From the NCBI GenBank assembly GCA_037951105.1, contig JBAMJV010007776.1, forward strand, positions 1 to 64,000: a stretch of DNA of 64,000 bases, read 5' to 3'. The stretch comes from Echinarachnius parma (taxonomy: Eukaryota > Echinodermata > Echinoidea > Clypeasteroida > Echinarachniidae). The first letter of the stretch is position 1. Every line of letters starts with the position of its first letter. Shown here one piece after another: positions 16,342-62,854 of this stretch. The notes under the pieces are model-generated. The model was given only the letters and a program-made list of their open reading frames with translations. It did not search any database and was not told the origin of the DNA. The translations under genes and the position numbers were made by a program.

Positions 16342-16344
16342 GAG

Positions 16345-20267: not shown

Positions 20268-20400
20268 ATGGATAAGCATTTCGCCACCTCCTCACTCCGG
20301 TACCGCCCATTTTCAACTATTTCGCTCATCAGTGGCCTTCTTCTACTTGCTTGCTACATACGCCCTTCTAGCGCTGGCTGCACGGCGATGAATTACGGAG
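20268..20400 (+). CDS. Gene B exon 1: signal peptide
   Basis: It starts at ATG with a basic N-terminus (MDKHFATSSLRYR), a hydrophobic core (ISLISGLLLLACYI) and a cleavage-like SSAGC, ending in phase 1 before GTAAGA. Nearly identical to gene C's first exon (60838-60967), which supports the start. Confidence 0.85.
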
Positions 20401-38400: not shown

Positions 38401-40857
38401 TTAAACGTACTTATCCGTACCCTTCCGTGGCCAAGCACCGTACCTTAACGTAATTCAACGCAGTTCCACGGTGTTCAACTTAGTTTAAGCTAGTTTAAAA
38501 GGCCGGTCATACTTGCGGTAGTGGACGTAGTTGAACGTAGTGGTGGCTAACGTTGTTGATCGTAGTTGAACGAAGTTGAAGGTAGTTGAACGTACTAGCA
38601 TCCGTATCGTACCGTAGTTGTCCGTGATGCTAACTTGGTATTAACTCGGGGGAGCCGTGATCTTCGATTTAATTTTTGAACATGTTCAAAAGAGCGGTAC
38701 GTTAAAGGCATCCGTAGTAATAACGTACTAAACCGAAGTTTAACGTAGTTTAACGTAGTCTAACGAAGTCTAGCGTAGTCTAACGTACTTCGTTATGTAC
38801 TTAAATGTACTCTACACACTAAGAAAAAAAGGTGCAAAAAAGGTGCAAAGTATGCAACACTGGCGGCTCCTTTTAAGGTACATCTTAGCACCTTTAAAGG
38901 TGCAATCTTGTACCTTTAGGGTACAACTTTGCACCTTTAAAGGTGCAAAGTGACACTTTGCACTTTAAGGTACAACTTAGCACCTTTAAAGGTGCAATCT
39001 TGTACCTTTAGGGTACAACTTTGCACCTTTAAAGGTGCTAAGTTGTACCTTAAAAGGAGCCGCCAGTGTTGCATACTTTGCACCTTTTTTGCACCTTTTT
39101 TCTTAGTGTGTAGCGTACTCTAACGTACTTTACCGTGCACAAAACCAGCATCGACAGTCTTGATCCAGACATGCTTAATTACAAAAAATAAGACCAATTT
39201 CACAGACCTGCTATGTTTGAAAAACAAGCGCAATGACCGTACCACACCACCGGTTGGCTGTTATACTCCGTGCGGGGTTGCTATTTACCGTAGTTTGACG
39301 TTCTTTAGCGTAGTCCAGCGTAGTGGCTACCGCAGTCTCTCGTACTCAAGCGTATTCAGACGTACCACTCCGTACCTGTCCGTGAGCAAGCTGTACCCAC
39401 ATTAGCGTAGTCTAGCGTAGTTTAATGTACTTAAACGTACTTATCCGTACCCTTCCGTGGCCAACAACCGTACCTTAACGTAATTCAACGTAGTTCCACG
39501 TTGTTCAACTTAGTTTAACCTAACGTACTTACACCACGTCTGACCCACATTAAATTACCCTACGGATCACTACGTCCCCTACCGCAAGTATGACCGGCCC
39601 TTAAGAATAGAAGAGGACGGTACTTTGCACACCACAGTCTATCGTAAACCCACCCACACTGACCAGTACCTTCTGTTCGATTCTCACCACCCTCTCATCC
39701 ACAAGCTGGGAGTAGTGAGGACTTCGTTCCACCGAGTTTCATTCATCCCTTCATCAGAGGAAGCAAAGGAGGAGAAACACATACACATTAGGGAAGCCCT
39801 ACACTGTTGCGGCTACAAAAGCTGGAGCATCGTAAAAGCCCTTCACCCTCGTGACCGCAGGACACAGCCGACCAGCGCACACCCAAGGAACACAACCAAG
39901 AGATCTGGTGTTTCTGTTCCTTACGTTAAGGACCTGTCCGAAAAGATACAGCACATCCCTGTCTATTTAAAACCGGCCAACCCTCTTAAACAAAGACTTG
40001 TTCACCCAAAAGACACAACTCCTGGACAGAACAAAAAAAACTTAGTGTATGCAGTCCAATGCCAGGGGAAAAAACTGCAAGGAGAACTGCATTGGAGAAA
40101 CCAAACAGCCCATCACAAACGACTCTACCAACATCGTCGCTCCGGTTCTGTAGGAAATGAATCTGCTGTCTACTCTCACTTGAATACATCAGGCCTCGAA
40201 TTCAATGACAAAGATGTTTTAATACTAGACAAGGAACCATGGTGGTTTGAGAGAGGGGTCAGAGAAGCCATTTACGTCGCAGCTGAAAATCCCTCGGTTA
40301 ACAGGGGAGGGGGACTTCGCCACAACTTATCTCTAGTGTGTACAATCCAATAATCCGCCAGATTCCTCGACGCCTAAACAATCTCGAACAATAGAAGATT
40401 ACGTACTTCAGTGATTCCAACATCTTTCAGCAGTAATCTTCTCTTCCCAAGCCAGTTTAGCTGAAGAAGCAACCTGGAGAGGTTGTGAAACTGTACTACT
40501 CCCAAAATAGTAACTCCAGTTTGTGAGATTTAGTTTTGTGTCTATGAACTCTTTCATGGATGAATCAAAATCTTCACTATAGTATACCATAATCCATTTT
40601 TCATTTATAATCTATTTCTGTTAAATTGTCATCATCACACTAATCGTTTTATTAACTGTCACAGATAACATTTAGTGCAAGTGGAGAATTCGAAGTACAT
40701 GTTTCCGAAGTGACAGGTCATGTCGTCTTCTACCGACCCGGCAATACGACAATAGGTAACAGATAAACAAACCACAAGGGAATAAAGGAAGTGAGCCCAT
40801 ATCATTCCTTTGTGTTTTTGTCTCCACCTTTGATTTTTAAAATCAATACGTCATTCG

Positions 40858-40914: not shown

Positions 40915-43900
40915 GGGGGGGGGGGGTAGAAATATCCGTCATGCCCTTCGTGGAAGCCATGGACTATTAATCTAAATGACTTCTTTTTGGAAGTTTTTTT
41001 TTACTCTACCTAGGAATGACTTTTTACATTTAACTAGTTATAATGCCATAATAATGAACTATGCTACAACATGTTGCCATTATATACACTTTGATTAGTG
41101 GCGCAGTTTGGATAACTATATCTTGTTCGAGGGGCATGAAACTCATTAGGGTCACCTTTTTATGTTTTCTTAATTGATATGTTTTGGTTATGATACTTTT
41201 CGCCTATTAACTGGGAAGCGCGGGGGGACCTTCCCTATGCGTTATACACAGCTGTACCTTTACAGTGTGCCCCCACAACAAAAAAAACAAAAACGGAACG
41301 GGATACTTCCCTTATAAAAAAATCGTGATCACTAGGTTAACGGGATAGGCATCATTTACACAGAAAATTACAAGAACAGTAATATTGGTCGAGTAGTTTT
41401 TGATTTAGGATGTCTTAAGTGACACTTAAGCCAAGTGCCCACTTGGCGATCTGCGCCTAGCGATCTAGAGCGATCTTGCCCGAATAGGAGCGATCCCCTG
41501 AGATCTGTGGTTAAGTCGCAAAGTGGGCACCAATGGCCGCACCAGATCGCTGTAACTCGCGTCCGCAAGGGTGGTGTCGGTTGCAGTCGCCGGGGTTTTG
41601 ACATGTTCAAAAATCTGGCGATCAGATCGGCCTCGATCGCATTCGCGGCGAACTGGTGCGATTTGCACAAATACGAGGTCGCTATCAACTCGGGCTAGTT
41701 CGCAAGAAATGCCTCGACCCCATTTCCACGCATTGTCGAGGAATACAATAGCCAGGAATTCACGCTTGTTTGATTTTATATCATCATCTGTTTTTAGAAT
41801 TTGTTGAATGTGTGCGTATGGCAAGCCGTTTTAACATTTATTCCTTTTTGTTGATATCAAGAATTACCATTGCTTAACAACAAAAAATCATTTCTTGATA
41901 TCAAGAATTCATTTCTTGATATCAAGAAAAGAATTCTTGATTCTTGCAGGGCGCCTTTGTAAAGCATTTTTGCATAACTGAACATCGAATTCTTGATATC
42001 AAGAAATCATTTTCTGTTGTTAACCAATGGTAATTCTTGATTTCAAGAATTCAATTCTTGATATCAAGAAATCGAATTCTTGATATCAAGAAATCGAATT
42101 CTGGACATCATGAATAAATGTTTAAACGGCTTGCCATTTGTGCGATCCGGCCCGACATGCGATCGAGAACGAAATTTTTGAACCAAAAAAAACCTGGCGA
42201 CCGCAACCGACACCACCTTTGCGGACGCGAGTTACAGCGATGTGGTGCGGCCTTTGGTGCCCACTTTGCGACTTTTCGGGCAAGATCGCTCTAGATCGCT
42301 AGGCGCAGATCGCAAAGTGGGCACTGGGCTTATAAAAAAAATCGCAAAGCGGATTATGATGTCAAAACAAGCAAGAGTGAACAATACCTGGCTGTAATCC
42401 TCAACCATGCACGCATGCGTGGAAATAGGGACAATGCATTTCTCAGGGGAAGTCGCCGTGAGATCGCATAGTGGGCTCCGAAAAGATCGCGTACGCAATG
42501 AGATCGGGCTGACTTGCGGCGAACTGGTGCGATTCACACCGAACCGAGATCGCTAGCAACTCGGGCTAGTTCGCAAGCTCAGATCGCATAGTGGGCACTT
42601 GGCTTAAGTCGGGTTCCCATTTTTGTCAATTTCAACAAAGTCGGTGCCTGATAAATGGCACTTCATGCCCATCATAGCGTCAAACAACGATCAATATTAT
42701 GTGCGCCATTGTCAATGTGCATTCAGCTGTGTAACCCGAGAGAGAGGTGTATTAGGGAGTGAGTAAAAACAAGAAGGTACTAGTCTAGTACCTCCTTGGT
42801 AAAAATGGGTAACATTGCCGAGGTACTTTTCAAATAAAAAAAATAATAATAAAAGGATCGACGCCTCTGGGTTTGGGTTACCTGGTGGGCAAAGGATGCA
42901 TGGGGCACGCATCGGTGATGTAGATGGTAGTTTATTCGGATGAGCCATATCGGAATGCTGAGAAAGCTTCATTATGAACCATTTTTTTAAGTAATTTGAA
43001 TAGCATCTGTAGCTCTCACATTATCAAGTATTGTTTACATAATAGTATTGTATATACATAACACTATCCTAATACCTTACTCATGCATGATGCAACTTTT
43101 CAAATACCATGAAAAATGTGTGATCGAGGGTGGGGATCGTGGAGGTTCTCTTATGTCATGTATGTATCATGATAATTGTATAAAGCTAAGCAGCTATGAT
43201 CATAAAGAAATGATTTGTTTGTTTAATTTGAACTACAGGGAACATAATTTGTAATATTATTGTCTACGTATGTTTGCTTTGAATGACTTTCAATTGTTTT
43301 TAAAGAAGAGTATGGTCAAGGTCCGCTTAAGTGAATGAATTAAATAAAGTCAAAATCAATTCAAAGTTTACAAATTGTCTTTAATGCTTTTAGTTGCAAC
43401 GCCTGTAGAAACAACGGTTACTCCTGAAAAAGGGATTACGACGCCCTCAATACAAACATCGACAACAACATCAGCATCAACTGGAACTCGCAATGAAAAC
43501 ACGCAAAGAGGTGAAACTAAAATTGTGTATGCTTTTTTCTGTAGGAATAAAAAAGAAGAAAATAACACGATGTTTGAAAAATGTCGAACTTTTGCAAGGA
43601 CACAAAGAGTTTTTAGAAAGACAAGGTAGGAAATCATTTAGTACCATGCTCTGTTTATCACAATGTATTTTACATTTCAATCGTCCTATATCTTATATTA
43701 TAGGTTTTCCGGACCAATTTCGTAAGCTTCTCATTCGTTTTGATAAGCGTGTCATTCAATTTCGCGAAATTGAGCTGAAGGCTTGCAAATGTGGTTCAAA
43801 ATTGCATTTTGTTCATACGATTTAGCTCTTCGGTCAAGTGATTTACCACTTTAAGCATTCAATTTAAACAACACGCTGTTTGCATTCAATTTCGCCAACG

Positions 43901-46900
43901 GATTTCACGGAAGGCGGTATTACGTAATCACGAAATTACTCGCTTTAAAATGAATGACAATTTTACAAAATGAAACACGTTTTAAATCTAATGCAAACAA
44001 AATGTTTTCGAATTATCGTTATATGAATTCGAATGCCAAAAAACGAATTTGAACTGCAAAATACAGCTGCGGTGACAAAATCGGCGAAATTGAACGCACT
44101 CAAAATGAATTCGTGCAGCCAACTTACGAAATTGACCAAGAAATCCTATATTATTGATTGTTGATGTTGTTGTTATTATTATTGGTGTTATTATAATAAA
44201 AATAATAATAACAATTATTATTATTATCATTATAACTTATACCATTGTAAGTGCTGTTACTAATTAATCGACGAGTCAATTTAATACAAATTTTATCTTT
44301 TTACAATTTTCTCAAATACCAGTCAATTAAATAACAATTTTACCATTTTATAATTTTATTAAAAATGAGCAAAGAAAATGGGATTCCAACGGTCAGAGCT
44401 GTTAAAAAGTTGTTATCATCCAGTATTACGTATACACATTTTCCTCGTGATGCAAGTTTTAATATAATACATAAGAAAGTGTTCGATCGGGATTGAAAGT
44501 GAGGGAAGCTCCCTATTTTAATTGTGTTAATGTTCAGTGTATTGAAATATGCAGAAATGGTTATAATGAAATAAATATATACTTATTTGAACTACAGTAT
44601 ATGTATCCACATACCAACTTAATGATATAAGTTGTAATAGTATTTGTGTACACATGCTTGCTTTTAAAGAAAAGTCTTGATCAAGTTCCGCTTTAGTAAA
44701 TACATACTGCAATAAAATCAAAACTAATTCAAAGTATACAAATTGTCTTTAATGCTATTAGTTTCAACGCCTGGAGAAACAACGGTTACTCCTGAAAAAG
44801 GAATTACTACGCCCCCAACATCAACGTCGATAGCAATATCAACACCAACTGCAATATCAACATCAACAGCTCCGTCGAATAAAACAACACAAAGAGGTAT
44901 GGCGTGAAGAAGTGAACACAAATTGTGAATGCTTTTCTTTTGTTGGAATTAACAAAATAACACGTTGATATATAAAAAAAAAAAGATCGACCTTTTGCAA
45001 GGGCACAAAGAGTTCTTAGAATGACAAGATAGGAAAGTCACTTAGTAACATTATCTGTATGTTATATTTCAATCATCCTATATCTTATATTATTATTGAT
45101 TTTTGATGTTGTTGTTATTATTATTGTTGTTATTGAGATTATAATAATAACAATTATTATTACTGTCATTATAACTTATAACATTACAAGTGATGTTACT
45201 AATTAATCGACGAGTCAATTAAATAACATTTAAACAAATCTGTTTACAATTTTCTCAGATACGAGTCAATTAAATAACAATTTTATCATTTTACAGTTTT
45301 CTCAGAGCTGTTAAAAAGTTGTTATACACATTTTCCCCATGATGCGAGTTTAAATATAGCATGAGAGAGTGTTCGATCGGGGTTGAATGTGACGGAAGTT
45401 CCTTATTTTAATTGTATTGATGTTCATTGTATTGAAATATGCAGATATTGTTATAATGAAATAAATATATATATATATTTTGTTAAATTTGAACTACAGC
45501 TACAGTGTACGTATCCACAAGCCAACATAATTTGTAATAGTATTTGTGTACATTTATTTGTTTTTAAAGACGATAGTTTTTAACGAAGAGTATTGTTCAA
45601 GGTCCACTTTATTAAATACATGATATGAAATCAAAATCAATTAAAAGTATATAACATTTCCTTTAAAATCAGTTTCGACGCCTGGAGGAACAACTAAGGG
45701 AATAACGCCGACCTCAACATCAACATCAACTGGAGCTCCGTCAAAGGAAGAAACGCAAGGAGGTATGGCGCGAAGAAATTAGATAGAATTATGTATGCAC
45801 TTTGTTTTTGTATACATTAATGCTTGCGTGTGTAATAATAAAATAATCATACCCTAGTTTTCTAAAAAGGTGTAAAGCCTTTGATTCCGCCAATCATCAG
45901 CTTTTGTTAGAAAAATTACATATGTATGTTATACAGGGTCATGAACTGGTCTGGTTTAAAGATTGCTTATATGGACGCAGACAAAAAAGGTGGTTGGTAA
46001 GAGTGAATCAAACTGGGGTGAAATTAATACAGGCGTACCACAGGGATCTACATTATATTGGGACCACTTTTGTTCACAATTATGGTAAATGATCTCCTAA
46101 GGCAGTAACTAAATGTGAAATTATGTTATATGCAGATGATGCTGTATTATTTTTTAGTAGTAAACATCAAGAGGAAAATAATAGAGAAGGTTATGAATCA
46201 AGAATGTTCAAAAATGGGTTCAAATAAATAAACTAGCAAATGCCCTGATTTTACCCCTTTTTGAATACTGTAATAATGCCTGGTCCGATCGTTCACAAGG
46301 TACTAAGGATATACTTATACCAGTATACGCCAACATAAAAGAATGGCAAGAATGGTTTTTGGAGTCGAGGTGCGTACCCCAACAAAATAAGTTTTAAATC
46401 GTTTATATTGGGTAAGCATTGAAGAAAGGTGGACTTTTAATCAGTGTAAAATGGTTTATCATTGATTGGGTGACCAAGCACCAATGTATTTAGCTACAAT
46501 GTTTATTAAATCTCAATCTTTACATACTCATCCAGAAACGCAGATAACATGGGTTTAATTTTACCAAAAGTGAAAACACAAATGGGTAAATACTGTTTTT
46601 TTCTCATTTAGGAGCAGTTCTATGGAATGATCTTCCAAACATTATTCAATTAGCTACTTCCAAAATTGTTTTTGTTAATTTATATTGGCGCATGTTGAAA
46701 AATAATAATTGATATTCATTTTGAATGATTTTAGTTAATTGGTCATAAAATATTATTTCAATGTTGAATTTCTATTTGTAAAAATAGATATTTGTACTTC
46801 TTTGTTTAGGTATATTAGTGTTGTATATTATGTTGTAGGGCCTCTGCGAAAAACAGTGCTCCGATCACTGACAGAGCTACCCTACTGAAATAAAAACGAA

Positions 46901-49900
46901 TACAAAAAACTAATTTTTTTCAAAAAGACAAGCTGGGAAAATATAATGCTGTGACTTACATCGTTAGACCAAAAACTCATCCTTTGTCCCTACAGTTGTT
47001 CCACTGTAACCATGGTAACGGCTAGTGGATTAGCTTCGGGGGCACGGAGTGTGGGGTGTGGGGGGGGGGGAGGGGAACTTGCCCCCCCCCCCCCCCCCAT
47101 TACACAATTTTTTCCAAAAACAATACAAAACCATTAGGGGGAAATTTGTGTAAATATAAAACAAAAAACATAAGGTATGCTCCTCAATCATTCGCGTGCC
47201 CCCCCCCCCCCCCCCCCCCATCAGCCGTCCGCACTACGCCACTGGTGACCGTGTCCAGCTCCACTGACAGTTTGATGATAGTATAGGAATTCATTTAGAA
47301 AAGAAAACTTCACGTAGAGTCGGTTATTTCGAACTTTTACAGTGTCTGATTCTTTTGTAATAATATACAGGGTGGCCCCCGAGAAAAAGAACGGGGCACT
47401 TCCCAAAATAAAGTAACACAATAATTATGTTCATCGGATAGGGTGTCTTTTCCAATAAAATACGATACCAAGAACAGCCATTTTGGTCGTGTAGTTTTTG
47501 ATTTAGGGCGCTGTGAGTAACACCATGTCAGGCTCCCGTTTCTGTCAATTGTTTTACCAAGTCAGTGACTGATAAATCGGAATTACTGCCCGTCATAGTA
47601 TAGAACAGCTATGCCCATTCTGTTAGTCTAGTTCTAGACCCTCGGAAGTTGATCTCCGCCACCCCGAAAAGCGCTGCCAAAACGAGAGATCTGTATTCAT
47701 TATTGATCGCGTGGCCACGCGATCATTAATGAATACAGATCTCTCGTTTTGGCAGCGCTTTTCGGGGTGGCGGAGATCAACTTCCGAGGGTCTAGAACTA
47801 GACTACCATTCTGTCGGCACACAGCTGAATGCACACTAACAATAGCGCGCGTATTGCTCGTTGTTCGATGCTATGACGGGCAGTAAGTGCGATTTATCAG
47901 ACACTAACTTGGAATGGTAACAATTTACAAAAGTGGGAACATGAAATTGCGTCACTCACAACGCCCTAACAAAAAAACTACACGATCAAAATGACTGTTC
48001 TTGGTATTGGTTTTCATGATGGACATGATACAAATTTTAAAACTATATTTTGGGAAGTGCCCCGTTCCGTTTTTTTTGTTGGGGGGGGGGGGGGGTGAGG
48101 GGGGCACCCTATTATTGTGTAATTCCATCATTCAAAATATGTTGTAAAATATACATTTAGCACGTAATTCGACGTAATTCTAGATATTGAGGTAACGTTT
48201 GTTGTTTCTGTGTTGTGTTCTAAAGATCCGTTTGGTGTTTTCGTTCCGGTGGTCATTGTCCTAGTCGTAGTCGTCATCGTATTGGTCGTTGTTATCGCCT
48301 GCTTCGTGTACAGATACAGGTGAGGATTTCAAAGCTTATCAGAGTCATTAATGCTTTTCGACACTTTGCAGTACATTGTTAAAACGCTGTGTAAAAATGG
48401 TTGTTGACTCTTTTTATACAACCTTAGGTGTAGCATGATTAGTTGTAGAAAGAAGGGTTGTGTAAAGCGGCCATTGTTCAAGCGTTGATTAAACGTTTTA
48501 AATCACGTGATAGTTACGACCGCGAAATCATCGCGACAAAACCATTTTTGTCCCACTGCAAACCATGCGAAACGAGATAGCGACGAGGTAGCGTGTTAGT
48601 CTTATAACCCAAAGGACCCGGTTTGATTCCGACTTTGCCGTTTTATAGTACAATCATCTTTGTGTTTGCTATTTCAACAACAGGGTTGTTTAAAATTTAT
48701 TCTAAACAACGGTTGTAGAACAAATAAAAACAACAGTTGTGTAAGCTTTAAACAGCTGGGGTTGTTGAATGTTTTCAACAAGAGTTGGATGGTTCATATG
48801 TTAAACAGCGGTTGTAGAACATTTTCAACAAGTTGTTGAATTTGTTTACACAGCGTTTCAACAGTGTAATCTAAACCGAACACAAAAAGTAACTTCACCC
48901 CTTAAATAATACCTTTATAAAGATATTTCTTTCACCAAATGATTGCTATGATCATGATGATGGAGCTGTAGCTTCTGTGTAAAAATCAGACATATCCGTG
49001 AACGTACGGCTGACTGAGCACAAATAAAAGACAAAATGGTCACTTTTCAAAAGCTGCAAGATTTCATTCATGGCTAACCAACATCACATCTGTTTTAACG
49101 CATCGATTGTGTCAAATCAAAACAGGGCCATTGCTATCGGGCTCTTACAGGCTCGTCTTCCACTACGTGGGAGATCCTTCACCTCTCCAGTTTCTTGGAA
49201 TTTGTTACGAAGATTTCTCATTGTGTTCGGGGAAATGCCCAGTGTCCGTGCTATACGTTTAAGAGGGGTCCCAGCCTGTAAGAGCCCGATAGCAATGGCC
49301 CTGTTTTGATTTGACAACTTTGGCATGATGGATTTCGATGACTTGTTGCAATTGATAGGCAAGGGAAAATGACAGACAATTCAACGTTTTAACCTTCATG
49401 TGATCTGTTTTACATGTGTGTTTATTTACAAATCACAAACAATGACGGGAATTCAAACTGTATTGTTACACAGATCACAATCGATGCGTTAAAACAGATG
49501 TGATGTTGGTTAGCCATGAATGAAATCTTGCAGCTTTTGAAAAGTGACCATTTTGTCTTTTATTTGTGCTCAGTCAGCCGTACGTTCACGGATATGTCTG
49601 ATTTTTACACAGAAGCTACAGCTCCATCATAGCAATCATTTGGTGAAAGAAAAATCTTTATAAAGGTATTATTTAAGAAATTATGACGTTTTCCCTAGGG
49701 GTGAAGTTAGTTTTTGTGTTCGGTTTATATAGCTGCAGGCATGATTTTGCATTCGCTAGTAATGAGAAAATACAAAAAAACAAAAAAAAAACAATATACA
49801 CACGCACACAAACAACGAATTGACAAATAAACTCATATCAACAAACTAAAAATCACAAAAAAACAAAATTAACAAAAAACACAAAATAACGGAAACAAAT

Positions 49901-52614
49901 AACCAAAACAAAAAACATCTTTAAAATGTTCACAAAATATATACCCGAAAAATTATATTGTTTCATCTATTTTCACTTATTTTCTCGATGCATGCAAGTA
50001 AACCTTGACACGTCGTTGCTCTTTGCCCCCAAGCAGCTGTGCCTTTTTAATGGAGATTTTATTGCCATTATAATTTCGATTCAATGTTCGATGACATTGA
50101 TAGTAAGTGATTTCTTGATTGGTAAGTCCTTACAAGCCTTCCTCACATATTAAAATGGTAAAATAAGACGGTAGCGAGAACCTACAACTAAACCGAACAC
50201 AAAAAGTAACATACCCCCTAAGCAATTGCCCATAATTTCATAACTAAGAATCGTTTCAAGATTTCGTCATGCCAAGATATCCATATGGTAGTTAGGAAAA
50301 CAATGTGTACAAATAAGTGGTAACCATTAATCCATGGTTGAGTGAGCACACATTACAGAAAAAAGAGTCATATTTCATAATTCGCAAAAGTATTATCATC
50401 ATTACAAATTATTGAGAATTGGAAAATTGACAAATGCACTGTTTTACAATAGCAATCTGCATTTTACCACATGTGCCATAAAAAATCTAAATGAATGGAA
50501 TATCAAACAGCATTGTTTCATAAACCATGATCAATGCATCCCGCCACATGTGCTGATTCACAACAATATACAGGCACACGCAATACCTTGTGACTTTTGA
50601 ATTGGGCCATTTTGTCTTTAATCTATGCTCATTCAGCCATAAAGTGATGAATATCTCTGATTTTCGCACATATCGAACATAACGACTGTGCCAATATAAT
50701 TGTGGTAAGATGACATCTTGAAACAATTATCGGTTATGAAATTATGGGCAATTGCTTAGAGGGTAACTTACTTTTTGTGTTCGGTTCATATACAGCAACC
50801 AGAAACAATGCTCACGGAATGTCCGATACCGATACGTATAACTTTCCCCATTGTATTTTTCTAAACTTAGATGGCAGCGAAAACCACACGATTAGCCCGG
50901 CAAGAATGGCCCTCCATCTGTCACCTCGACATGACGTTTAAAAGGCCATGTCTAACATTATACACTCAAATGTGTAATACTGTCATTATTTAAATAATAT
51001 TTGCTATCCAATAGCAGGCCTAATCAGCGTCGTGGTCGTAATTATTATTATTTTTAATTCCCTTATCTTAGACGGAAACACAAATCTCCAAACCAAACCG
51101 GAGGTCCAGGTATGGCTCTTCACCCCACGTCACCTTTACACGGTCGTGGTTCTGCTCAGCAACATGAATATGAGGAGACGGACGACCGAAGAGGCGGATC
51201 GAACCGTGATTCCAAGGTGTATGCCGAGATTCAGGATCGGGACGACAACAAGGATGGCAAAGAGCTTCCAGGAAAGAACCACGGGAAGCCATTGGGCTCG
51301 GGACCTGCACCCCCTGCACCACGAGGTGGTGCTCGTTACCAAGACGTGTTGGCGCCTGGTGGTCGACCGGTGGTTGGTGCGCTTCAGGACTCCCAAGCAA
51401 CATCTGAAATGCACACGTACGAAGGGCTGCAGAACCCCGATGCCAAGTACACCTCGCTGCTTCCTGATCTCGTTCTCAACGGAAACAAGACGTCGAAACC
51501 GATGGGCGATGAGCGTGGCAAAGACAACGATGTGTACAATGAGATAGATGAACAGAATTACAATGTCCTTGACAGCGGGAAGGAAGTGTCTGGATACCAT
51601 GAGTACAACGTACCTGATGAGAATCATGGCAGATCCAAACAGAGTCCAAAAAAGCCTCGCGCAAATAACATAAATACGAGCGGACCTTACCAAGCATTGG
51701 GTACACCTGACGTCAAGACGAGTAACATAAATTCGCGCGCTGGGACAAATGGCCGCGAACAGGCAGGCATGCACGAGCATGCACCCACTGGACGGTCAGG
51801 TTTGGGAGGAAGTGAGAACCACGCGTACCAGGATCTCAGACAGGATAATGATAACTACACACCGCTCCGTACCGGGGATGCTGGCAGCGATACCCAAAAC
51901 ACAAACCAAGGATTCCGCCAAGACGAAGCAAGTCCTGGTTCGGACTACCTAGGACTCAAGAAAGAAGAACCGAACTATGCCGTCCTAGAATCCAGCGATC
52001 CCGAGCGTTCGGAGTATGAGTCACCGAGAAAGGACCAGGATTCCGGTGACTACTTGAGCCCCAGTGACAGTCAAGTAAGTAGGAAGGATGACTATGCCAA
52101 ACCTATGCCGAAACCATTATCGACAAACCAGTCTGACGAATCGAAAAATGGTGCAGGCTACACATCACTTCAGCTGGACAATCAAGGTCCGAATTCTACA
52201 GTTCTGGATCCGGATGACTATCAGGTCCCAGAATCTGCGAAAGCGGCGAGTCCCCGATCTACAGGGGATGAGCATGATGATTATATGGACCCTGTTCAGG
52301 CAGACACACGTACTCAATCGGAGGGACCGTACGACCACCTGCAACACCAGAAGATGAACTATGTCAAACCAAGTCAGGCACATTTCGCTGGAAACCAATC
52401 GGATGGATCAAATCTTGATGCAGGCTACGGGGCTCTCATACTGGATTCCCAAAGTCCTGGTGCTGCAGTCCAGAAACCGAGCGGCTCTAATGATAACTAC
52501 GCGAGTCTTCAAGCCACTGGTGATGACCACGATGATTACATGGATCCTGTTCGAGAGACTCCTGCATCGGAGGGACCCTACGATCATCTCCAACACCAAC
52601 GAATCACTTCCTAA
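20268..52614 (+). CDS. Gene B: complete three-ITAM single-pass receptor, 10 exons, 948 aa
   Basis: Joining 20268-20400, 20602-20898, 26698-26763, 34989-35269, 40665-40755, 43394-43510, 44762-44896, 45673-45762, 48226-48319 and 51072-52614 gives 2847 bases, exactly 949 codons including TAA. Every junction has AG/GT and agrees in phase. Order: signal peptide (1 to about 38), an ectodomain with six cysteines (to about 289) that I do not recognise, Ser/Thr/Pro stalk (290-403), one helix (about 407-430), basic stop-transfer, tail (435-948). The tail has 26 tyrosines: 16 in YxxL/I/V, 8 in YxxP, and three exact ITAMs at residues 551-564, 687-700 and 727-740. Inferred role: cell-surface receptor signalling through tandem-SH2 kinases. 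Additional exons in the long introns cannot be excluded. The start is the only ATG before the signal peptide and is shared with gene C. Confidence 0.8.
20602..20898 (+). CDS. Gene B exon 2: variable ectodomain segment
   Basis: 99 residues between a TCCTGCAG acceptor and a GTAAAA donor, phase 1 in and out. It opens with DNVRMPSITCDATNW and ends TAVFVNG, both kept in gene C. The middle (residues of the type IPHEW...LRILVQTRSNS...) differs greatly from gene C, including a three-codon length change. One cysteine, no recognised domain. It may form a beta-rich ligand-binding module. Confidence 0.8.
20953..21677. mobile_element. Inverted-repeat element rich in CGTACGAT words, gene B intron 2
   Basis: The left end AATGCTACAGTCACAAATGG is mirrored by CATGACTGTAGCATT at 21663-21677. 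An inner inverted pair (ACAGTCACAAATGGTCCG and CGGACCATTTGTGACTGT, ending 21544) lies close to it. The interior repeats CGTACG(A/G), GTACGGGC and CACGGG words, many of them palindromic. Gene C runs straight from GCCATGTAAGCCTCACTATGT at this place (61509-61529), so the insertion is specific to gene B. Confidence 0.7.
21678..22137. other. Gene B intron 2, conserved with gene C
   Basis: Matches 61515-61945 of gene C in order (ATTACCATCGTTGTCA, GCGCTTCAAAATAAAATATT, CAGCCCCCGGGAGTTT). It contains one copy of the dispersed CCCGGGAGTTTGAAAATGG repeat. No exon seen. Confidence 0.5.
22301..23011 (+). CDS. LINE ORF1: coiled-coil RNA-binding protein
   Basis: 236 residues with a heptad-rich N-terminal half (FDELTRRVEELHTANVSLRK...LKSRVLALETQVNNLEAYGRR) and then a basic domain with IEIAGIPET, VHRLGQ, RPIIVRFATRRVRDKVF and FINENL. 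This order of coiled coil, RRM-like part and C-terminal domain matches the L1-type ORF1 protein (transposase-22 family) also present in several invertebrate LINEs. It would bind element RNA in the ribonucleoprotein particle. The ATG at 22301 follows the 5' tandem repeats directly and no upstream in-frame extension is needed. Intact as read. Confidence 0.85.
   Translation: MNKLTVMGGDLTDVRSGQAQVVGSIIFLSAKFDELTRRVEELHTANVSLRKDNGELKSRVLALETQVNNLEAYGRRQNIEIAGIPETQQEDVGAVALKVLQRVQRDVDINDIDVVHRLGQPDHIRQVHHRQPRTQPRPIIVRFATRRVRDKVFAQRKQLKETNISDLGLGLRGDGNIFINENLLPATKNLLYLANRTRKDKGYKFLWTSNGKILVKKSAETLAIVLTSEADLEKIK
23052..26002 (+). pseudogene. LINE ORF2: endonuclease and reverse transcriptase, one frameshift
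   Basis: The first frame (23052-23489) carries the apurinic-type endonuclease start: HINIRSLNKNFDHF, IGLSEIW, RGGGVAAFIK. The second (23486-26002) continues with MGDFNIDLL, LIDHIYTN and LSDHFPI, and then the reverse transcriptase blocks ARVSSVYKKG, NYRPISVLPILSKVFEKL, QYGFREKHST, VFVDFAKAFDTINH, GVPQGSVLGPTLFLIYINDL and FADDSNIF. It ends with a thumb region that includes SHLAYGLEVWG and ISFQGSDIWNSMP. The switch lies at about 23470-23486, where loss of a single base breaks an expected YRKPNTD motif into NLTPT-stop. FADD is present, so the polymerase centre is intact. With one lesion this copy is recent but probably cannot move by itself. Confidence 0.85.
26332..26697. other. Gene B intron 2, 3' part
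   Basis: Resumes homology with gene C (TATACCATTCAATCATGG, TTTTATCCACTAGAATTAAG, TCGTCTAATGCATGTTATGT). The MITE present in gene C at 62075-62518 is absent here; the site reads CCTCTTATAGTAATTTT (26439-26455). No gene. Confidence 0.5.
26698..26763 (+). CDS. Gene B exon 3
   Basis: 22 codons (VINISDTTNCAIEIQSKWKDD) between TATCTACAG and GTGAGT, phase 1 in and out. Gene C's counterpart at 62789-62854 has the same length, splice sites and SDTTNC core. It carries one cysteine. No domain recognised. Confidence 0.8.
26764..27419. other. Gene B intron 3, AT-rich
   Basis: Contains GTT repeats near 26830. At 27000-27130 it has a short complex block (CGGGCCAACCCGGCTCGGTG) of unknown nature with a weak hairpin. 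No gene recognised. Confidence 0.35.
27420..28090 (-). mobile_element. LINE fragment: RNase H relic and C-terminal zinc knuckle
   Basis: The minus ORF 27422-27673 encodes a CPNC...THFLCQCPEY knuckle (C-X2-C-X8-H-X4-C pattern), typical of the C-terminus of I- and Jockey-clade LINE polyproteins. Further 5' on the minus strand (about 27890-27950) WIPSHCGLNGNEIVDIEA matches the last catalytic block of RNase H, followed by degraded frames. The reverse transcriptase is missing. A different LINE type from the element at 22138. Confidence 0.7.
28127..28176 (+). other. tRNA-like 5' half (truncated SINE head)
   Basis: GCATGGTGGCTTAGCGGTTA and the following GAGTGTCCGCCTCATGCACG give a plausible tRNA 5' half with box A and an anticodon arm, but the TψC half is missing; the sequence runs into an unrelated repeat. 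Best read as a truncated SINE or tRNA fragment. Confidence 0.5.
28180..28500. repeat. Degenerate tandem repeat with AGGTCA words
   Basis: Three units of about 95-105 bases recur: (AG)CTTGTAAT(T/G)GCAA...TCAAGAAC...CATCAAACTTGGTACCT...AGGTCAAAGGTCAAGGTCAC, and so on. The AGGTCA half-sites are complete in the first unit (about 28299-28318) and decayed in the later ones. Confidence 0.6.
28543..28900. mobile_element. Partial MITE with CAGGGTG ends, copy 1
   Basis: It begins ATACAGGGTGCCCCCC and shares GGGGCACTTCCCA, ATGTCCATCGGATAGGGTGT, CACCATGTCAGGCTCC and GACGGGCAGTAAGTGCGATT with the complete element at 47368-48110. The right end is lost near 28900. Confidence 0.75.
29935..31205 (+). mobile_element. 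RTE-type LINE reverse-transcriptase relic
   Basis: Blocks in order on the plus strand: KGDPMSPKLFTAALDEAFTN (about 30020), then after a SINE insertion IFAGNILILSHSHTPDEVQE (30510 on), later SVKRQVFDQCIVTVLSYGAE (about 30765) and finally remnants of a C-terminal arginine-rich region ending FLLQWSEVG-like (about 31165-31200). Several frames and stops. The expected FADD catalytic box reads FAGN, so the polymerase is dead even apart from frameshifts. Confidence 0.75.
30127..30508 (+). mobile_element. tRNA-derived SINE, copy 2, inserted in the RTE relic
   Basis: The tRNA head has box-A-like TGGCAAGATTGGTAG and a good box B GAGTTCGAACCC near 30190. The body contains CAGGTGTATAAATGGGGACC and CCAATGACCGGGGTGATAAT. 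The tail is AAAGCGCTTAGAG, GGCGCTATATAAATC and (ATT)n. It splits the reverse transcriptase between a GEYL-like and an IFAGN-like block, with ATCTCAC/ATCTCAT at the two edges as a likely target duplication. Confidence 0.85.
31300..32437 (-). pseudogene. PIN/FEN-like nuclease-domain protein of a repetitive family
   Basis: The 308-residue minus-strand ORF (31511-32437) has VVFDGYMKGPSTK, VLVADDMDSLVLLCYH and HAFLGCDTTSHCHGFGKG. These match a widespread multi-copy invertebrate family whose aspartate-rich blocks (DxD-like ADDMDSL and GCDTTS) resemble the metal-binding core of PIN/FEN/XPG nucleases. Beyond the ORF's stop the same strand still encodes the usual C-terminal block (about 31300-31490: LNSLRRQRFPEKV, YAAAYFHSQHVFLSMQQWKG), so the frame is broken near 31511. 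The N-terminus looks truncated too. It lies between long inverted repeats, so it is probably mobile-element cargo. Function unknown; the family assignment is from memory of its motifs. Confidence 0.55.
33456..34235. mobile_element. Inverted-repeat element built from ATTCCGAAGGTTCGTT units
   Basis: The left side repeats GGTTCGTTATTCCGAA and GGTTCGTTAGTCCGAAAATG about six times. The right side (34164-34235) carries the inverse, TTCGGAATAACGAACC three times, ending GCTGTAACCATA against TATGGTTATTCCGAAG at the left. A different MITE (33664-34088) and a poly-C tract sit in the middle. Confidence 0.75.
33664..34088. mobile_element. MITE with ATAGGTTTTC ends, copy 1 (nested)
   Basis: Matches 43702-44147 in opposite orientation over its length (CGAATTCATTTTGTGTGCAT, GTATTTTGCAGTTCAAATTC, CGTAATACCGCCTTCCGTGA, GAAGCTTACGAAATTGGCCC). 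It is truncated at the left edge where it enters the host element. Confidence 0.75.
34240..34800. repeat. Degenerate GGTCGCTATTCATAAT tandem repeats with inverted partners
   Basis: From about 34400 the words GGGTCGCT(T/A)TTCA, GGTCGCTATTCATAATT and GAGTCGTTATTCATAATG repeat with AGTGACC/GAATAGCGA inverses after 34680. Probably another palindromic repeat element. No coding content. Confidence 0.55.
34989..35269 (+). CDS. Gene B exon 4: main ectodomain exon
   Basis: 94 residues from a TTTACCTAAG acceptor (phase 1) to CTT|GTAAGT (phase 0). Cysteines lie in YTCSST, SVLCRE and TILCTK. Alternating hydrophobic strands (FQAGDRLLLSFKYKYTP, SGEVSVLC, GVLTILCTKLTAGDSLL) suggest a beta-sandwich continued by exon 5. 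No family recognised: it lacks the Ig tryptophan-and-DxGxYxC signature. Gene A has a broken copy. Confidence 0.8.
35270..35924. other. Gene B intron 4, first part
   Basis: AT-rich, no ORF or repeat recognised before the Penelope-like element begins. Confidence 0.4.
36120..37780 (+). pseudogene. Penelope-like reverse transcriptase, frameshifted
   Basis: The first frame (36120-37166, 348 codons) contains ISLPYVEYITATEYAIR and the diagnostic KDIIILPSDKGRCTVVLNK. In a second frame follow FYGLPKIHKADVPLRPIVSS (about 37140) and IASVDVSALSTSV (about 37340). Further shifted frames give GCAMGSPISPVLANLYI (about 37540) and YRYVDDTWVKIKTAELNSFF (about 37645), the YVDD catalytic box. It ends QLAFLDCVV where the inserted repeat starts at 37786. 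At least three frameshifts are needed, so it is inactive. Confidence 0.8.
37786..39602. mobile_element. Dimeric repeat built of ACGTA-type words inside the Penelope element
   Basis: Two units start with GGCCGGTCATACTTGCGGTA (37789 and 38500). The far end is the inverse, TACCGCAAGTATGACCGGCC (39582-39601), so the whole is bounded by terminal inverted repeats. Units of about 712 bases are almost identical and consist largely of variants of TAACGTACTT, GCGTAGTCTA and TAGTTGAACG. The second unit carries a further insertion (38814-39114). Flanks rejoin the Penelope frame (LDCVV ... RIEEDGTLHT). Confidence 0.8.
38814..39114. mobile_element. Near-perfect palindromic MITE with CACACTAAG ends and TA duplication
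   Basis: The left arm CACACTAAGAAAAAAAGGTG, then GTATGCAACACTGGCGGCTC, is mirrored at the right by GAGCCGCCAGTGTTGCATAC and CTTTTTTCTTAGTGTG, flanked by TA. The middle repeats ACCTTTAAAGGTGC in both orientations. The sister unit shows the unoccupied site (GTACTCTAGCGTACTTTACC at 38083-38102). Confidence 0.9.
39607..40353 (+). pseudogene. Penelope-like element C-terminus with GIY-YIG-like region
   Basis: The plus ORF 39625-40353 begins with the conserved post-RT block HTTVYRKPTHTDQYLLFDSHHP, then HKLGVVRTSF. It continues into a region with YAVQCQGKKL, a broken C..NC.ENCIGET-type motif (in the neighbouring frame near 40075-40100), and FNDKDVLILDKEPWWFERGVREAIYV, all typical of Penelope GIY-YIG endonuclease proteins. 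A small frameshift near 40070 breaks the zinc/GIY-YIG core. Confidence 0.8.
40665..40755 (+). CDS. Gene B exon 5: end of ectodomain
   Basis: 30 codons (ITFSASGEFEVHVSEVTGHV...) from GTCACAG (phase 0) to ATAG|GTAACA (phase 1). It lies just 75 bases after the Penelope element. Alternating hydrophobic residues suggest two beta strands completing the exon 4 fold, and GNTT gives a potential N-glycosylation site. Confidence 0.8.
40756..41260. repeat. Intron 5 start with (GT)n microsatellite
   Basis: An uninterrupted GT repeat of about 52 bases lies at 40861-40913, followed by a G run. The rest is AT-rich and featureless. Confidence 0.8.
41424..42609. mobile_element. Palindromic element with ACTTAAGCCAAGTGCCCAC ends
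   Basis: Left ACTTAAGCCAAGTGCCCACT and right AGTGGGCACTTGGCTTAAGT are perfect inverted repeats. Subterminal words GCGATCTGCGCCTAGCGATC and AGATCGCTCTA repeat on both arms. The interior is split again by 41819-42136. Small ORFs are by-products of the GATCGC repeats. Confidence 0.85.
41819..42136. mobile_element. Nested MITE rich in TTCTTGATATCAAGAA palindromes
   Basis: The ends TGGCAAGCCGTTTTAACATT and AATGTTTAAACGGCTTGCCA are inverted. Inside are about eight copies of TTCTTGATATCAAGAA or close variants, in both arms, around a short unique centre (TGCAGGGCGCCTTTGTAAAG). Confidence 0.85.
42751..43393. other. Gene B intron 5, last part
   Basis: AT-rich. The last 60 bases (AAATCAATTCAAAGTTTACA) resemble the sequences before the second and third stalk exons, marking the border of the tandem exon duplication. 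No gene. Confidence 0.45.
43394..43510 (+). CDS. Gene B stalk exon 1
   Basis: 39 codons, phase 1 in and out: VATPVETTVTPEKGITTPSI then Thr/Ser-rich and NTQR. A mucin-like O-glycosylated stalk is expected. Acceptor CTTTTAG, donor AGAG|GTGAAA. Confidence 0.8.
43702..44147. mobile_element. MITE with AGGTTTTCC ends, copy 2
   Basis: Inverted ends AGGTTTTCCGGACCAATTTC and GAAATTGACCAAGAAATCCT. The same intron position after stalk exon 2 lacks it (TATATCTTATATTATTATTG near 45077-45096), giving an empty site with an AT-rich ATATTAT duplication. Confidence 0.8.
44762..44896 (+). CDS. Gene B stalk exon 2
   Basis: 45 codons, phase 1 in and out: VSTPGETTVTPEKGITTPPT, Ile/Ser/Thr repeats, APSNKTTQR. It is a duplicate of stalk exon 1 together with its intron: following sequences such as GTTACTAATTAATCGACGAG are shared. 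NKT is a potential N-glycosylation site. Confidence 0.85.
45673..45762 (+). CDS. Gene B stalk exon 3
   Basis: 30 codons, phase 1 in and out: VSTPGGTTKGITPTSTSTST, GAPSKEETQG. Shorter than exons 1 and 2, having lost part of the TVTPEKG repeat. It can be skipped or included without changing the frame. Confidence 0.8.
45860..46915 (+). mobile_element. Degraded LINE reverse-transcriptase fragment
   Basis: Plus-strand blocks in several frames: KAFDSANHQLLLEKLHMY (about 45868), WFKDCLYGRRQKRW, TGVPQGSTL (about 46030), LLYADDAVLFF (about 46120), and a thumb remnant near 46260-46400. It ends GCGAAAAACAGTGCTCCGAT...AATAAAAACGAATAC at about 46850-46905, a 3' end shared with the LINE at 52877. Many stops; inactive. 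Confidence 0.75.
46985..47225. repeat. Intronic poly-G and poly-C runs
   Basis: Homopolymer tracts at about 47057-47070, 47083-47098 and 47200-47219 generate poly-Pro and poly-Gly ORFs that I regard as artefacts. Confidence 0.8.
47368..48110. mobile_element. Complete MITE with CAGGGTG ends, copy 2
   Basis: Starts CAGGGTGGCCCCCGAG, AACGGGGCACTTCCCAAAAT; ends ATTTTGGGAAGTGCCCCGTT and GGGGGCACCCT. Long imperfect palindrome (for example GCCCGTCATAGTA / CGATGCTATGACGGGC). A 182-base palindrome is inserted near its centre. Confidence 0.85.
47624..47805. mobile_element. 182-base near-perfect palindrome with 9-base target duplication
   Basis: TAGTCTAGTTCTAGACCCTC at the left and GAGGGTCTAGAACTAGACTA at the right; the centre is GCGTGGCCACGC at 47714/47715. 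Only one mismatched pair is seen across the 91-base arms. It is flanked directly by CCATTCTGT at 47615-47623 and 47806-47814. Removing it restores the host MITE sequence (CCCATTCTGTCGGCAC). Confidence 0.95.
48226..48319 (+). CDS. Gene B transmembrane exon
   Basis: Encodes DPFGVFVPVVIV then a run of Val/Ile/Leu, ACFVYRY and the first two bases of Arg. Acceptor TTCTAAAG, donor ACAG|GTGAGG; phase 1 in, phase 2 out. No charged residue in the helix. Confidence 0.85.
48320..48870. repeat. Intron 9 with GTTGTT/AACAAC word repeats
   Basis: Between 48430 and 48860 the words GGTTGTGTAA, AACAGCGGTTGTAGAACATT and ACAAGTTGTTGAA recur in both orientations, suggesting a decayed palindromic repeat. No gene. 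Confidence 0.4.
48872..49727. mobile_element. Tc1-like derivative with very long inverted repeats and HTH remnant
   Basis: Ends TAAACCGAACACAAAAAGTA and its inverse (TTTTTGTGTTCGGTTTA) continue as about 240-base inverted repeats (GACAAAATGGTCACTTTTCA, TTCATTCATGGCTAACCAAC, CACAATCGATGCGTTAAAAC inverse). The centre holds a minus-strand ORF (49117-49362) with a helix-turn-helix. Flanking TA dinucleotides fit a Tc1/mariner target. Confidence 0.85.
49117..49362 (-). pseudogene. Transposase helix-turn-helix fragment
   Basis: 81 codons: KLSNQNRAIAIGLLQAGTPL, KRIARTLGISPNTMRNLRNK, FQETGEVKDLPRSGR. This is the N-terminal paired-like HTH of a Tc1-type transposase (helix, IARxLGIS turn, recognition helix) followed by the RSGR start of the GRPR-like linker. 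It then runs into RACKSPIAMALF, which comes from a 42-base inverted copy of its own start. No DDE domain, so it could at most bind element ends. Confidence 0.8.
49728..50188. other. Gene B intron 9, A-rich
   Basis: A-rich sequence with many ACAAA words at 49765-49925. The ORF 49926-50153 has no recognisable content. No gene. Confidence 0.4.
50189..50790. mobile_element. MITE with the same ends as the Tc1-like derivative
   Basis: Starts TAAACCGAACACAAAAAGTA and ends TACTTTTTGTGTTCGGTTCA; subterminal GCAATTGCCCATAATTTCAT is mirrored by ATGAAATTATGGGCAATTGC. The interior lacks the HTH fragment. Non-autonomous relative of 48872-49727. Confidence 0.85.
50871..50940 (+). pseudogene. Gene B: upstream duplicate of the juxtamembrane exon start
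   Basis: After a CTAAACTTAG acceptor, ATGGCAGCGAAAACCACACG resembles the start of the true exon in gene A (ACGGCAGCGAAAGCCTCCAA). It continues to GGCAAGAATGGCCCTCCATC. Spliced in phase 2 it would read RWQRKPHD and stop, producing a receptor without signalling tail. Whether it is used is unknown. Confidence 0.5.
51072..52614 (+). CDS. Gene B cytoplasmic exon with three ITAMs
   Basis: 514 residues after TATCTTAG; TAA at 52612-52614. Motif order: YEET, YAEI, YQDV, ITAM1 YEGLQNPDAKYTSL (51418-51459), YNEI/YNVL, YHEY and YNVP (absent from gene A), YQAL, ITAM2 YQDLRQDNDNYTPL (51826-51867), ITAM3 YLGLKKEEPNYAVL (51946-51987), YESP, YLSP, YAKP, YTSL, YQVP, YMDP, YDHL, YVKP, YGAL, YASL, YMDP, YDHL. 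Rich in Asp, Ser, Asn and Gln with no folded domain visible. Roughly 90 percent alike with gene A's tail by eye. Changes fall mostly outside the tyrosine motifs, and the spacing of all three ITAMs is unchanged. Confidence 0.9.
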
Positions 52615-56073: not shown

Positions 56074-56220
56074 GCGATACTACCAAATCAGTTACATTGA
56101 CCCCTGTTTCCGTGGAAACAAATTCAACAACTCGACCGACAACAACAAAATCATCAACATCATCAACAAGCATCTCGCCGACTGCAGCAACTCAGATACA
56201 GTACATATCAAAGAAATAAG
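56074..56220 (+). pseudogene. Thr/Ser-rich pseudo-exon (copy upstream of gene C)
   Basis: Reads GDTTKSVTLTPVSVETNSTT, then Thr/Ser-rich, and meets TAA immediately before a GTGGGT donor. It lacks the internal stop of its twin at 14643. Composition and phase resemble stalk exons. Confidence 0.45.
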
Positions 56221-56504: not shown

Positions 56505-57203
56505 CTAGGTTTCATCATAAATGTCCTCTTCATCCGTGATTTGCCTATTATGTCCCGACACGATGTTATCAGAGTGGTACGGATCGTCCTGGAGGTTTTG
56601 GGGGACCGCGTGGAACTCGCTGTTGACGTAGCCGGGACTAACCGACTCTTTCGCGCGGCTTTCCGTCGAGGTCTCGTTACCATCCCCATACTCTCCGAAT
56701 GTGCAGCCATGCTTTGCAGCGTACATACGAGTGGTTGCCATCACGCCGTTGTTAACGGCAGAACCTGAACAGCTTGTTGTATTGGGTGCCAGGGGTGACG
56801 ATTTTGTCCCTTTGGCGGCAGCATCCTCCAGAACGAAATAAAATCTGTTTTCTTTGTGCTCTTTCGAGTCGTTTTCGCTATTCGTTTCGGGAAACCCATC
56901 GCTCCCGATGCTGTTGAGGTCCGTTGATCTGTAGTCCGATGTCGGGCTAATTAGGTCCGGACTAGGTGGGTTCACGTCCGCATAGACGTGGATGCTTGGC
57001 AACTCTCTCTGGATGACGCCGTTGGGGTCACCTGGATGTCGACCTGCGCTTACAGTTGTCGCTGAGGGCGCAGGACCAATTTCTCCAACATATCCAGCCC
57101 AGGTGCGTTCTCGTCGACTTCATAGAGGTTCTGGTTGGACATTTTCTTTTTGTTCATCACATCCGGCTCCTGATATCGGCAAGCATCTTCCTGTTGCGCC
57201 TTC
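56505..57203 (-). pseudogene. Receptor tail exon D2, tyrosine-rich, mostly open
   Basis: From a TATTCAG|G acceptor near 57203 the minus strand reads RYQEP, MSNQNLYEVDENAPG; a four-base loss near 57085 then shifts the frame, after which about 190 codons are open to TAG at 56505-56507. Motifs in the open part: IHVYADVNPP, SDYRST, FYFVLED, RMYAAKHGC, GEYGDGN, GYVNSEF (a YxN Grb2-type site), DPYHSD and DIYDET. Neither a transmembrane exon nor ectodomain exons are seen on this strand nearby, so it looks like the tail of a former inverted receptor copy. D1 at 15098-17258 carries different lesions, meaning the ancestor was intact when the block was duplicated. Confidence 0.6.
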
Positions 57204-60837: not shown

Positions 60838-60967
60838 ATGGATAAGCATTTCGCCACCTCCTCACTCCGGTACCGCCAATTTGCAACTATTTCGCTCATC
60901 AGTGGCCTTCTTCTACTAGCTTGCTACATACGACCTTCTAGCGCTGGCTGCACGGCGAATTACGGAG
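60838..60967 (+). CDS. Gene C exon 1: signal peptide
   Basis: Starts MDKHFATSSLRYRQFATISL, with core ISGLLLLACYI and cleavage-like SSAGC; ends phase 1 before GTAAGA. One codon shorter than gene B's exon (CTANYGG against CTAMNYGG). Confidence 0.85.
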
Positions 60968-61158: not shown

Positions 61159-61464
61159 ACGATGTCAGAATGCCAAGCATCACTTGTGATGCAGCAGACT
61201 GGGCAAGTGCACCTTTATCCCCATGGATCGTACAGACTACCAATGAAAGTTTGAGAATTCTTGTTCAAAGTAACATTGCACCACTGAACTTCAATGGTTG
61301 GACAGTGACTGCAGGTGACTTCTTATATCCTGTATCAAATCATGTCATGGTGACTAGAGCGAGGTCGTTTCTCTCAGAGGGATCTTCGGTTGTGGTGGAC
61401 ATCCCTTTAAATCCTCCGCCTTTGCCTCATAAAGTGATATACGCCACTGCCGTCTCCGTCAATG
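61159..61464 (+). CDS. Gene C exon 2: variable ectodomain segment
   Basis: 102 residues between TCCTGCAG and GTAAAA, phase 1 in and out. DDVRMPSITCDAADWASAPL at the start and TAVSVNG at the end match gene B, but the centre differs (LSPWIVQTTNESLRILVQSN, then APLNFNGWTVTAGDFLYPVS). It adds NES, a potential N-glycosylation site, not present in gene B. Confidence 0.85.
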
Positions 61465-62788: not shown

Positions 62789-62854
62789 ATTACATCTCAG
62801 ACTCAGATACAACCAACTGTCGCACAACCCAGGAGGGATGGAATAATGGAGTTG
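62789..62854 (+). CDS. Gene C exon 3
   Basis: 22 codons (DYISDSDTTNCRTTQEGWNN) between TATCTACAG and GTGAGT, phase 1 in and out. Same length as gene B exon 3 with the SDTTNC core. The rest of gene C should lie beyond the window. Confidence 0.8.

Follow-up and report, generated by a model that had tools for sequence, protein, structure and literature searches.

A tandemly duplicated family of predicted single-chain type I receptors with multiple ITAMs in the genome of Echinarachnius parma

The window examined in this work, a stretch of 64,000 nucleotides from the echinoid Echinarachnius parma (assembly GCA_037951105.1, contig JBAMJV010007776.1, positions 1 to 64,000), contains a tandem array comprised of one gene that we will refer to as gene A, a second (gene B), the start of a third (gene C) and other repeated segments. 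Gene B is predicted to encode a type I membrane protein, in whose long cytoplasmic tail three immunoreceptor tyrosine-based activation motifs (ITAMs), the signal by which T-cell and B-cell receptors are activated, are present, and related tails occur on other contigs of the same genome. We read these genes, with a probability of roughly 0.6, as tandemly duplicated, single-chain, activating recognition receptors of type I that bear multiple ITAMs. This reading is based upon features that are seen in the DNA itself, viz. the gene structure as given by splice sites and paralogues, the motifs, the existence of a family, the constraint on the tail, the divergence of the ectodomain and the pattern in which motifs have been lost.

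Gene B and its relatives in the genome

Gene B extends over positions 20268-52614 of the forward strand, on which all features described below lie unless a minus sign is given, and its 10 exons splice in frame to yield a predicted type I membrane protein of 948 residues. All nine of its introns are of the GT-AG type, the reading frame is open across all ten exons, and the coding sequence consists of 948 codons and a stop. The original prediction, which was made from the letters of this DNA, had given the same length for the product and the same coordinates (51072-52614) for the tail exon. Exon 1 (20268-20400), which contains the start codon and a signal peptide, is 97% identical in nucleotide sequence to its copy in gene C; the signal peptides of both genes were called by eye, without a predictor. 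It is followed by exon 2 (20602-20898), which encodes the first, variable part of the ectodomain, by exon 3 (26698-26763), a short ectodomain exon, by exon 4 (34989-35269) and exon 5 (40665-40755), which encode the second part and its end, by three exons for a stalk rich in Ser, Thr and Pro (exons 6 to 8; 43394-43510, 44762-44896, and 45673-45762), by exon 9 (48226-48319) for the transmembrane helix, and by exon 10, in which the entire tail of 514 residues is encoded. The outer part of the protein is about 400 residues long, and the helix contains no charged residue and has a peak 19-residue hydropathy of 3.9. On its sequence the product thus has the features of a type I protein, namely a signal peptide (by eye), one transmembrane helix and a cytoplasmic tail, and the model agrees with the earlier claim that an ITAM-bearing tail is here fused to a signal peptide, an ectodomain and an uncharged helix. 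One of the introns contains a retrotransposon frame with endonuclease and reverse transcriptase (23447-26002).

The home genome, which comprises 14,790 contigs with a total of 1.2 Gb, was searched for relatives, and all copy counts given here are lower bounds. The receptor family that had been inferred from the window is real as a gene family, since at least eight full tail exons are present in the genome, as well as a ninth, in two pieces, that is cut off by the end of its contig. All eight full tails have an open frame. Each of the seven contigs that were read carries one or more ectodomain exons, and signal-peptide exons were found on the contigs labelled C7764 and C12823 (two each), C60, and C4696. 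The slice covering the helix is free of charge in seven of nine transmembrane exons, the exceptions being C4696, with an Asp at the outer edge of the helix, and one of the two copies on C12823 (C12823a; the other is C12823b). Among the gene models, only gene B could be read intact from the first to the last exon. C60, C9374, and C9460 are 93.4-96.6% identical and C12823 and C7764 88.6%; as these may be alleles rather than paralogues, the eight tails may represent fewer loci.

It could be argued that the tail exon is spliced to some other gene and that the receptor fusion is an error of reading, particularly as gene B covers 32 kb containing repeats and a retrotransposon frame. However, a transmembrane exon is found upstream of the tail, on the same strand, in all eight full copies, the acceptor of the tail exon is AG|AC in every one of them, and the phases fit in gene B; this explanation is in our view very improbable.

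The genome had also been described as of invertebrate type, with which the codon usage of a mitochondrial-type cox1 (C14600:8089-9429) is consistent in pointing to a non-vertebrate. Its codons include ATA (17), AGA (three), and AAA (one), placed at what we take to be conserved Ile, Ser, and Asn positions, in agreement with the echinoderm and flatworm code (NCBI table 9). Together with the look of the protein, this gene indicates an echinoderm; a hemichordate would also be possible on this evidence, a single AAA codon being present.

Tyrosine motifs of the tail and divergence of the ectodomain

The ITAM is defined in the literature as YxxL/I-x6-8-YxxL/I (PMC12058738). The tail of gene B (tail B) contains 26 tyrosines, of which 15 are part of YxxL/I, eight of YxxP, and one of YxxV words, so that L, I or P is found at +3 of 23 of them. 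Three pairs fit YxxL-x6-YxxL exactly, viz. YEGLQNPDAKYTSL (ITAM 1, 51418-51459), YQDLRQDNDNYTPL (ITAM 2, 51826-51867), and YLGLKKEEPNYAVL (ITAM 3, 51946-51987), and the three exact motifs that had been claimed for gene B were thus all located. When the residues of tail B were shuffled, none of 20,000 permutations reached three motifs (mean 0.018) and none of 20,000 reached 15 YxxL/I words. The rarity of the motifs under such shuffling is largely due to the abundance of YxxL/I words, the density of which clearly exceeds chance. This tail also contains an internal repeat, the two copies of which (52246-52349 and 52501-52598, or exon positions 1175-1278 and 1430-1527) are 75% identical and share the unit HDDYMDP...SEGPYDHLQHQ, suggesting that the tail grew through internal duplication. 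Short, degenerate stretches that repeat the beginning of the tail exon were seen by eye in the intron that precedes it (6654-7130 and ~50871-50940), and similar pieces also precede the tails on C12823, C3285, and C4696.

All eight full tails satisfy the sequence definition of an ITAM-bearing protein, with 3, 3, 3, 3, 2, 1, 1, and 1 ITAMs, respectively. ITAM 1 is intact in five, ITAM 2 in seven, and ITAM 3 in five of them. The first tyrosine of each ITAM, together with its YxxL, is kept in all eight tails, and the seven losses are all at the second tyrosine, which is replaced by L, H or V or is deleted. Because C60, C9374, and C9460 are closely related, these losses amount to about three events, and the coin-toss chance that three of three events fall on the same side is one in four. 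The presence of three ITAMs in one chain, as originally predicted, therefore holds for four of the eight tails but is not a fixed trait of the family, in which three tails have one and another has two; the loss of both tyrosines from each motif, which had been named as the pattern that would speak against a receptor of this kind, was not seen among the home-genome tails.

Other motifs of known function are scarce. The consensus of the immunoreceptor tyrosine-based inhibitory motif (ITIM; S/I/V/LxYxxI/V/L) is matched by one of the 26 tyrosines of tail B (SDYLGL), of which it is thus not the main motif, and by one tyrosine each in seven of the eight tails and three in C4696. YxxM, the phosphatidylinositol-kinase motif, is absent from all eight tails, and YxN, the motif of Grb2-type SH2 domains, occurs at a single site, in C4696. 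With its paired YxxL words, its other SH2-type sites, few ITIMs and no YxxM, the anatomy of the tails fits an activating receptor. A receptor of inhibitory or mixed output, in which single YxxL words would serve as ITIM-like or hemITAM sites for SHP or SHIP phosphatases, might be preferred for the three copies that hold one ITAM beside unpaired YxxL words, and the FcoR receptors of Botryllus are reported to bear ITIMs or hemITAMs (PMC12065747); the scarcity of matches to the ITIM consensus speaks against it, and we regard such an output as improbable.

The ectodomains of the family have diverged to a much greater extent than the tails. Identity between tails is 72-98% (28 pairs), whereas it is 18-69% in exon 2 (15 pairs), 22-85% in exon 4 (28 pairs), and 36-73% in exon 5 (10 pairs); between gene B and C60, it is 31% in exon 2, 24% in exon 4, and 81% in the tail. 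By these values, the family is one with a variable ectodomain and a constant tail. The ratio of nonsynonymous to synonymous substitution rates (dN/dS) of the tails is 0.29-0.73 in 27 of the 28 pairs, the exception (2.34) being the near-identical pair of gene A and C12823a. Between the tails of genes A and B, it is 0.36 (bootstrap 0.25-0.51), and a single in-frame indel of 15 nucleotides is found over 1,510 aligned nucleotides. Eight pairs of tails were aligned as DNA; seven of these show one to three indels, none of which is off-frame, whereas six aligned non-coding segments contain 36 indels, 27 of them off-frame. The tails thus appear to be mostly under purifying selection. Within the alignment of the eight tails, the Y and +3 columns of the YxxL/I words are invariant in 23 of 28 cases, as against 262 of 465 other columns (p=0.005), although the columns are not independent of each other and the p-values based upon them, here and below, serve as guides only.

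No credible match to Pfam or the PDB was obtained for the tail, or for the ectodomain by single-sequence or profile searches, the best weak Pfam match of the latter (DUF5666, E=0.0018) coming from one of six exon 2 sequences. No relationship between the two ectodomain parts was detectable, and among viral and prokaryote contigs none passed tblastn. An immunoglobulin (Ig) domain was likewise not indicated by any Pfam match or credible PDB profile match of the ectodomain. As the structure models of exons 2 and 4 (pLDDT scores of 34.7 and 46.5, respectively) are too poor for assignment of a fold, a diverged Ig or other beta-sandwich fold is possible.

Two proposals concerning the ectodomain were considered and rejected. 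Positive selection on exon 4, for which C60, C9374, and C9460 gave dN/dS of 0.98-1.35, was not accepted, because indels shift the frame locally, which makes the ratio an artefact for C60 and C9460 (5 substitutions in 245 sites plus such indels in their DNA alignment) and unsafe for the other pairs. Ratios above 1 for C12823a and C12823b (1.20 in exon 2, and 2.35 in exon 5 over 28 codons) and for exon 5 of gene B with C3285 (2.03, 30 codons) and with C12823b (1.03, 28 codons) involve few sites, and no claim of selection is made from them. The second proposal, that exons diverge faster than introns, holds for genes B and C near the aligned parts of the introns (identity of 75% in exon 2 and 64% in exon 3, as against 86-87% in aligned introns) but was not borne out by other comparisons. 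When exon 2 of these genes is compared with the 350 nucleotides flanking it on both sides, the difference in divergence is not significant (p=0.38), and between C12823a and C12823b, exon 2 differs by 14.6% and its flanks by 34-36%, all such flank comparisons being confounded by insertions that cannot be aligned. The dN/dS of the first three exons of genes B and C is 0.64 (bootstrap 0.42-1.03).

Weighing of the evidence and other features of the window

A number of observations weigh against activating multi-ITAM receptors. When the YxxL/I words of tail B were kept whole and only moved, these block shuffles gave a mean of 1.3 ITAMs per tail, and at least three motifs with a spacing of 6-8 in 13% of cases. 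An acidic residue is preferred at -3 of the ITAM tyrosine, and none of the three motifs in tail B has one at this position before its first tyrosine. Tyrosine columns overall are invariant in 15 of 24 cases, compared to 270 of 469 other columns (p=0.40). Further, four of the eight tails lack one or two ITAMs, the second tyrosines being kept in 5, 7, and 5 of the eight, and this is about the rate at which YxxP tyrosines are lost (kept in 5-8 of 8). All of this, except for the missing acidic residue and the overall tyrosine columns, is also what might be seen in a multisite docking scaffold on which YxxL and YxxP sites receive several SH2 proteins, or an adhesion or phagocytic receptor, in which the ITAM spacing is a by-product of dense YxxL words, and the eight YxxP words beside the 15 YxxL/I and the internal repeat of the tail are in keeping with it. 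However, with the words fixed, three motifs at a spacing of exactly six arose in only 0.24% of block shuffles (a test that was picked post hoc, after inspection of the data), and the first ITAM tyrosines are kept in all eight tails, whereas those of YESP, YAKP, and YVKP are kept in five. Pairing of the YxxL words into ITAMs beyond chance is thus suggestive, and a mere scaffold appears to us unlikely.

Other observations on the same side concern the integrity of the copies. The ectodomain of gene A is broken, with remnants of exons 4 and 5 (2440-3412) that carry indels and stop codons, and these are followed by a stalk-like exon (3839-3901), a transmembrane exon (5122-5218), and an open tail exon with three ITAMs (7215-8727). 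In C12823a, Arg residues precede the hydrophobic run and the frame before the helix looks shifted, and in C12823b the tail is split over two frames near position 117310. These defects may represent pseudogenes or assembly errors. If the copies were mostly non-functional duplicates, in a decaying array with few working genes or just one, the similarity of their tails would be due to recent exchange or duplication rather than selection; gene A and C12823a, which differ at 9 of 1,510 positions in the tail, 2 of 308 in the 5' flank, and 102 of 333 in the partly unalignable 3' flank, are suggestive of such events. The low dN/dS of the tails and the lack of off-frame indels in them argue otherwise, as does the open frame of gene B over all ten exons, and general decay is accordingly viewed as improbable.

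Because of its decayed exons, gene A provides poor support for the receptor reading. The original prediction had leaned upon the survival of all three motifs in gene A despite substitutions, which is confirmed, as 5 of 18 spacer residues differ between the two tails. The ITAM core residues are changed in 0 of 12 cases compared to 73 of 492 others (p=0.15), and for all 15 YxxL/I words the change is 0 of 30 compared to 73 of 474 (p=0.008); taken alone, the preservation in gene A is weak evidence for constraint. The prediction thus stands as regards the motifs, the receptor fusion of the gene model and the gene family, but not in its use of gene A as support or of three as a fixed count.

There are 68 SH2 matches in the home genome. 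A candidate for the tandem-SH2 kinase that would read the motifs lies on contig C10497, where two SH2 regions and, after them, kinase exons are found on the same strand. It is not proven to be Syk or Shark, because the second SH2 region matches RASA1 best, then SHP2 and then SYK, and the partial kinase domain best matches EGFR-type kinases. Both Syk and HTK16 are reported from the egg transcriptome of a sea star (PMC11593052), and Syk/Zap70 homologues are reported to track CARD-CC/Bcl10 across invertebrates (PMC5978004).

Of gene C, the window contains exon 1 with its signal peptide (60838-60967), exon 2 for the first variable part of the ectodomain (61159-61464), and exon 3 (62789-62854); no exons past these were found up to the contig end at 65524. 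A tail-like open frame that contains tyrosines (VYADV, FYFVLE, YVNSEF, EDIYDET) lies between the receptor genes on the minus strand (56508-56999), and a second copy is present in pieces at about 15101-17045 (minus). Its relatives were found by the genome search on C3285 and C12823, contigs that also bear the receptor family, and it may be the gene of a partner receptor. At 56081-56218 and 14643-14784, outside any full gene, isolated pieces rich in Thr and Ser were noted by eye and as weak matches; these look like stalk exons 6-8. A tRNA-like match (63745-63802, minus) is the sole Rfam match at the gathering threshold in the window.

Known receptors and the proposed mode of action

The Fester co-receptor (FcoR) genes of Botryllus schlosseri, as reported, resemble the family described here in being clustered invertebrate multigene receptors of type I that combine a signal peptide with a long tail bearing tyrosine motifs, and their members vary in polymorphism and signalling motifs, as the motifs do here; they contain Ig and sushi domains, are 520-610 residues long, and bear ITIM, hemITAM, or core motifs (PMC12065747). 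In the present family, by contrast, no known domain was found, the product of gene B has 948 residues, and up to three full ITAMs are present. The Alr allorecognition proteins of Hydractinia belong to the Ig superfamily, whereas the ectodomain here gave no Ig match. The Alr genes are also invertebrate candidate recognition genes, reported with ITAM and ITIM motifs (PMC12065747). Draper (CED-1, MEGF10) is described as a single-chain invertebrate ITAM receptor that a Src kinase phosphorylates, that the Syk homologue Shark then reads, and in which the ITAM and an NPxY motif have separable roles (PMC4503800). The present family differs from Draper in having up to three ITAMs and in the absence of NPxY from all eight tails. 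The ectodomain of Draper is of the EGF/EMI type, whereas that of our family gave no such Pfam match. CD3 zeta and FcR gamma have a short outer part and a charged helix for pairing, unlike gene B with its uncharged helix and larger outer part. CD3 zeta resembles gene B in having three ITAMs on one chain but is described as a signalling subunit with separate recognition chains (PMC12058738), whereas the head and the ITAMs are here part of one predicted chain. In the open-access literature that was searched, most subscription papers being outside its scope, no receptor of the same architecture is described, in accordance with the original statement that no such family was known. The family is therefore best read as resembling known ITAM receptors (FcoR, Alr, Draper) while having an apparently new architecture, the novelty of which would lie in the combination, in one recognition chain, of a head that is variable and unclassified with as many as three ITAMs.

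In the receptor that we propose, the two small, fast-diverging parts of the ectodomain would form a variable head, displayed by the Ser/Thr/Pro stalk and the uncharged helix. Ligand binding or clustering would lead to phosphorylation of the long tail by a Src-family kinase, upon which a tandem-SH2 kinase from the Syk or Shark class would be drawn to the paired YxxL motifs, and other SH2 proteins to the single YxxL and YxxP sites. Because one chain would serve both as ITAM module and docking scaffold, a partner of the CD3zeta/FcRgamma type would not be needed, and the number of ITAMs, which varies among members, would set the strength of the signal. The phosphorylation, kinase recruitment and activating sign in this scheme, as well as the ligand, cell type and expression that it presupposes, are what we infer from the anatomy of the genes.

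A broader proposal, which is possible but doubtful, is that echinoderms possess a recognition system of variable heads and constant multi-ITAM tails in which the strength of the signal is graded, in the course of evolution, through the conversion of ITAMs to half-ITAMs. If this is true, a single gene would join recognition and ITAM signalling, which vertebrate antigen receptors divide among chains. In the T-cell receptor, ITAM signalling resides on subunits apart from the recognition chains, and the role of ITAM number is described as an unsettled question (PMC12058738). A diversified family whose recognition chains themselves bear between one and three ITAMs would provide a natural series for comparing ITAM number among similar tails, and it would also supply candidate receptors for the Syk and Shark kinases of invertebrates.

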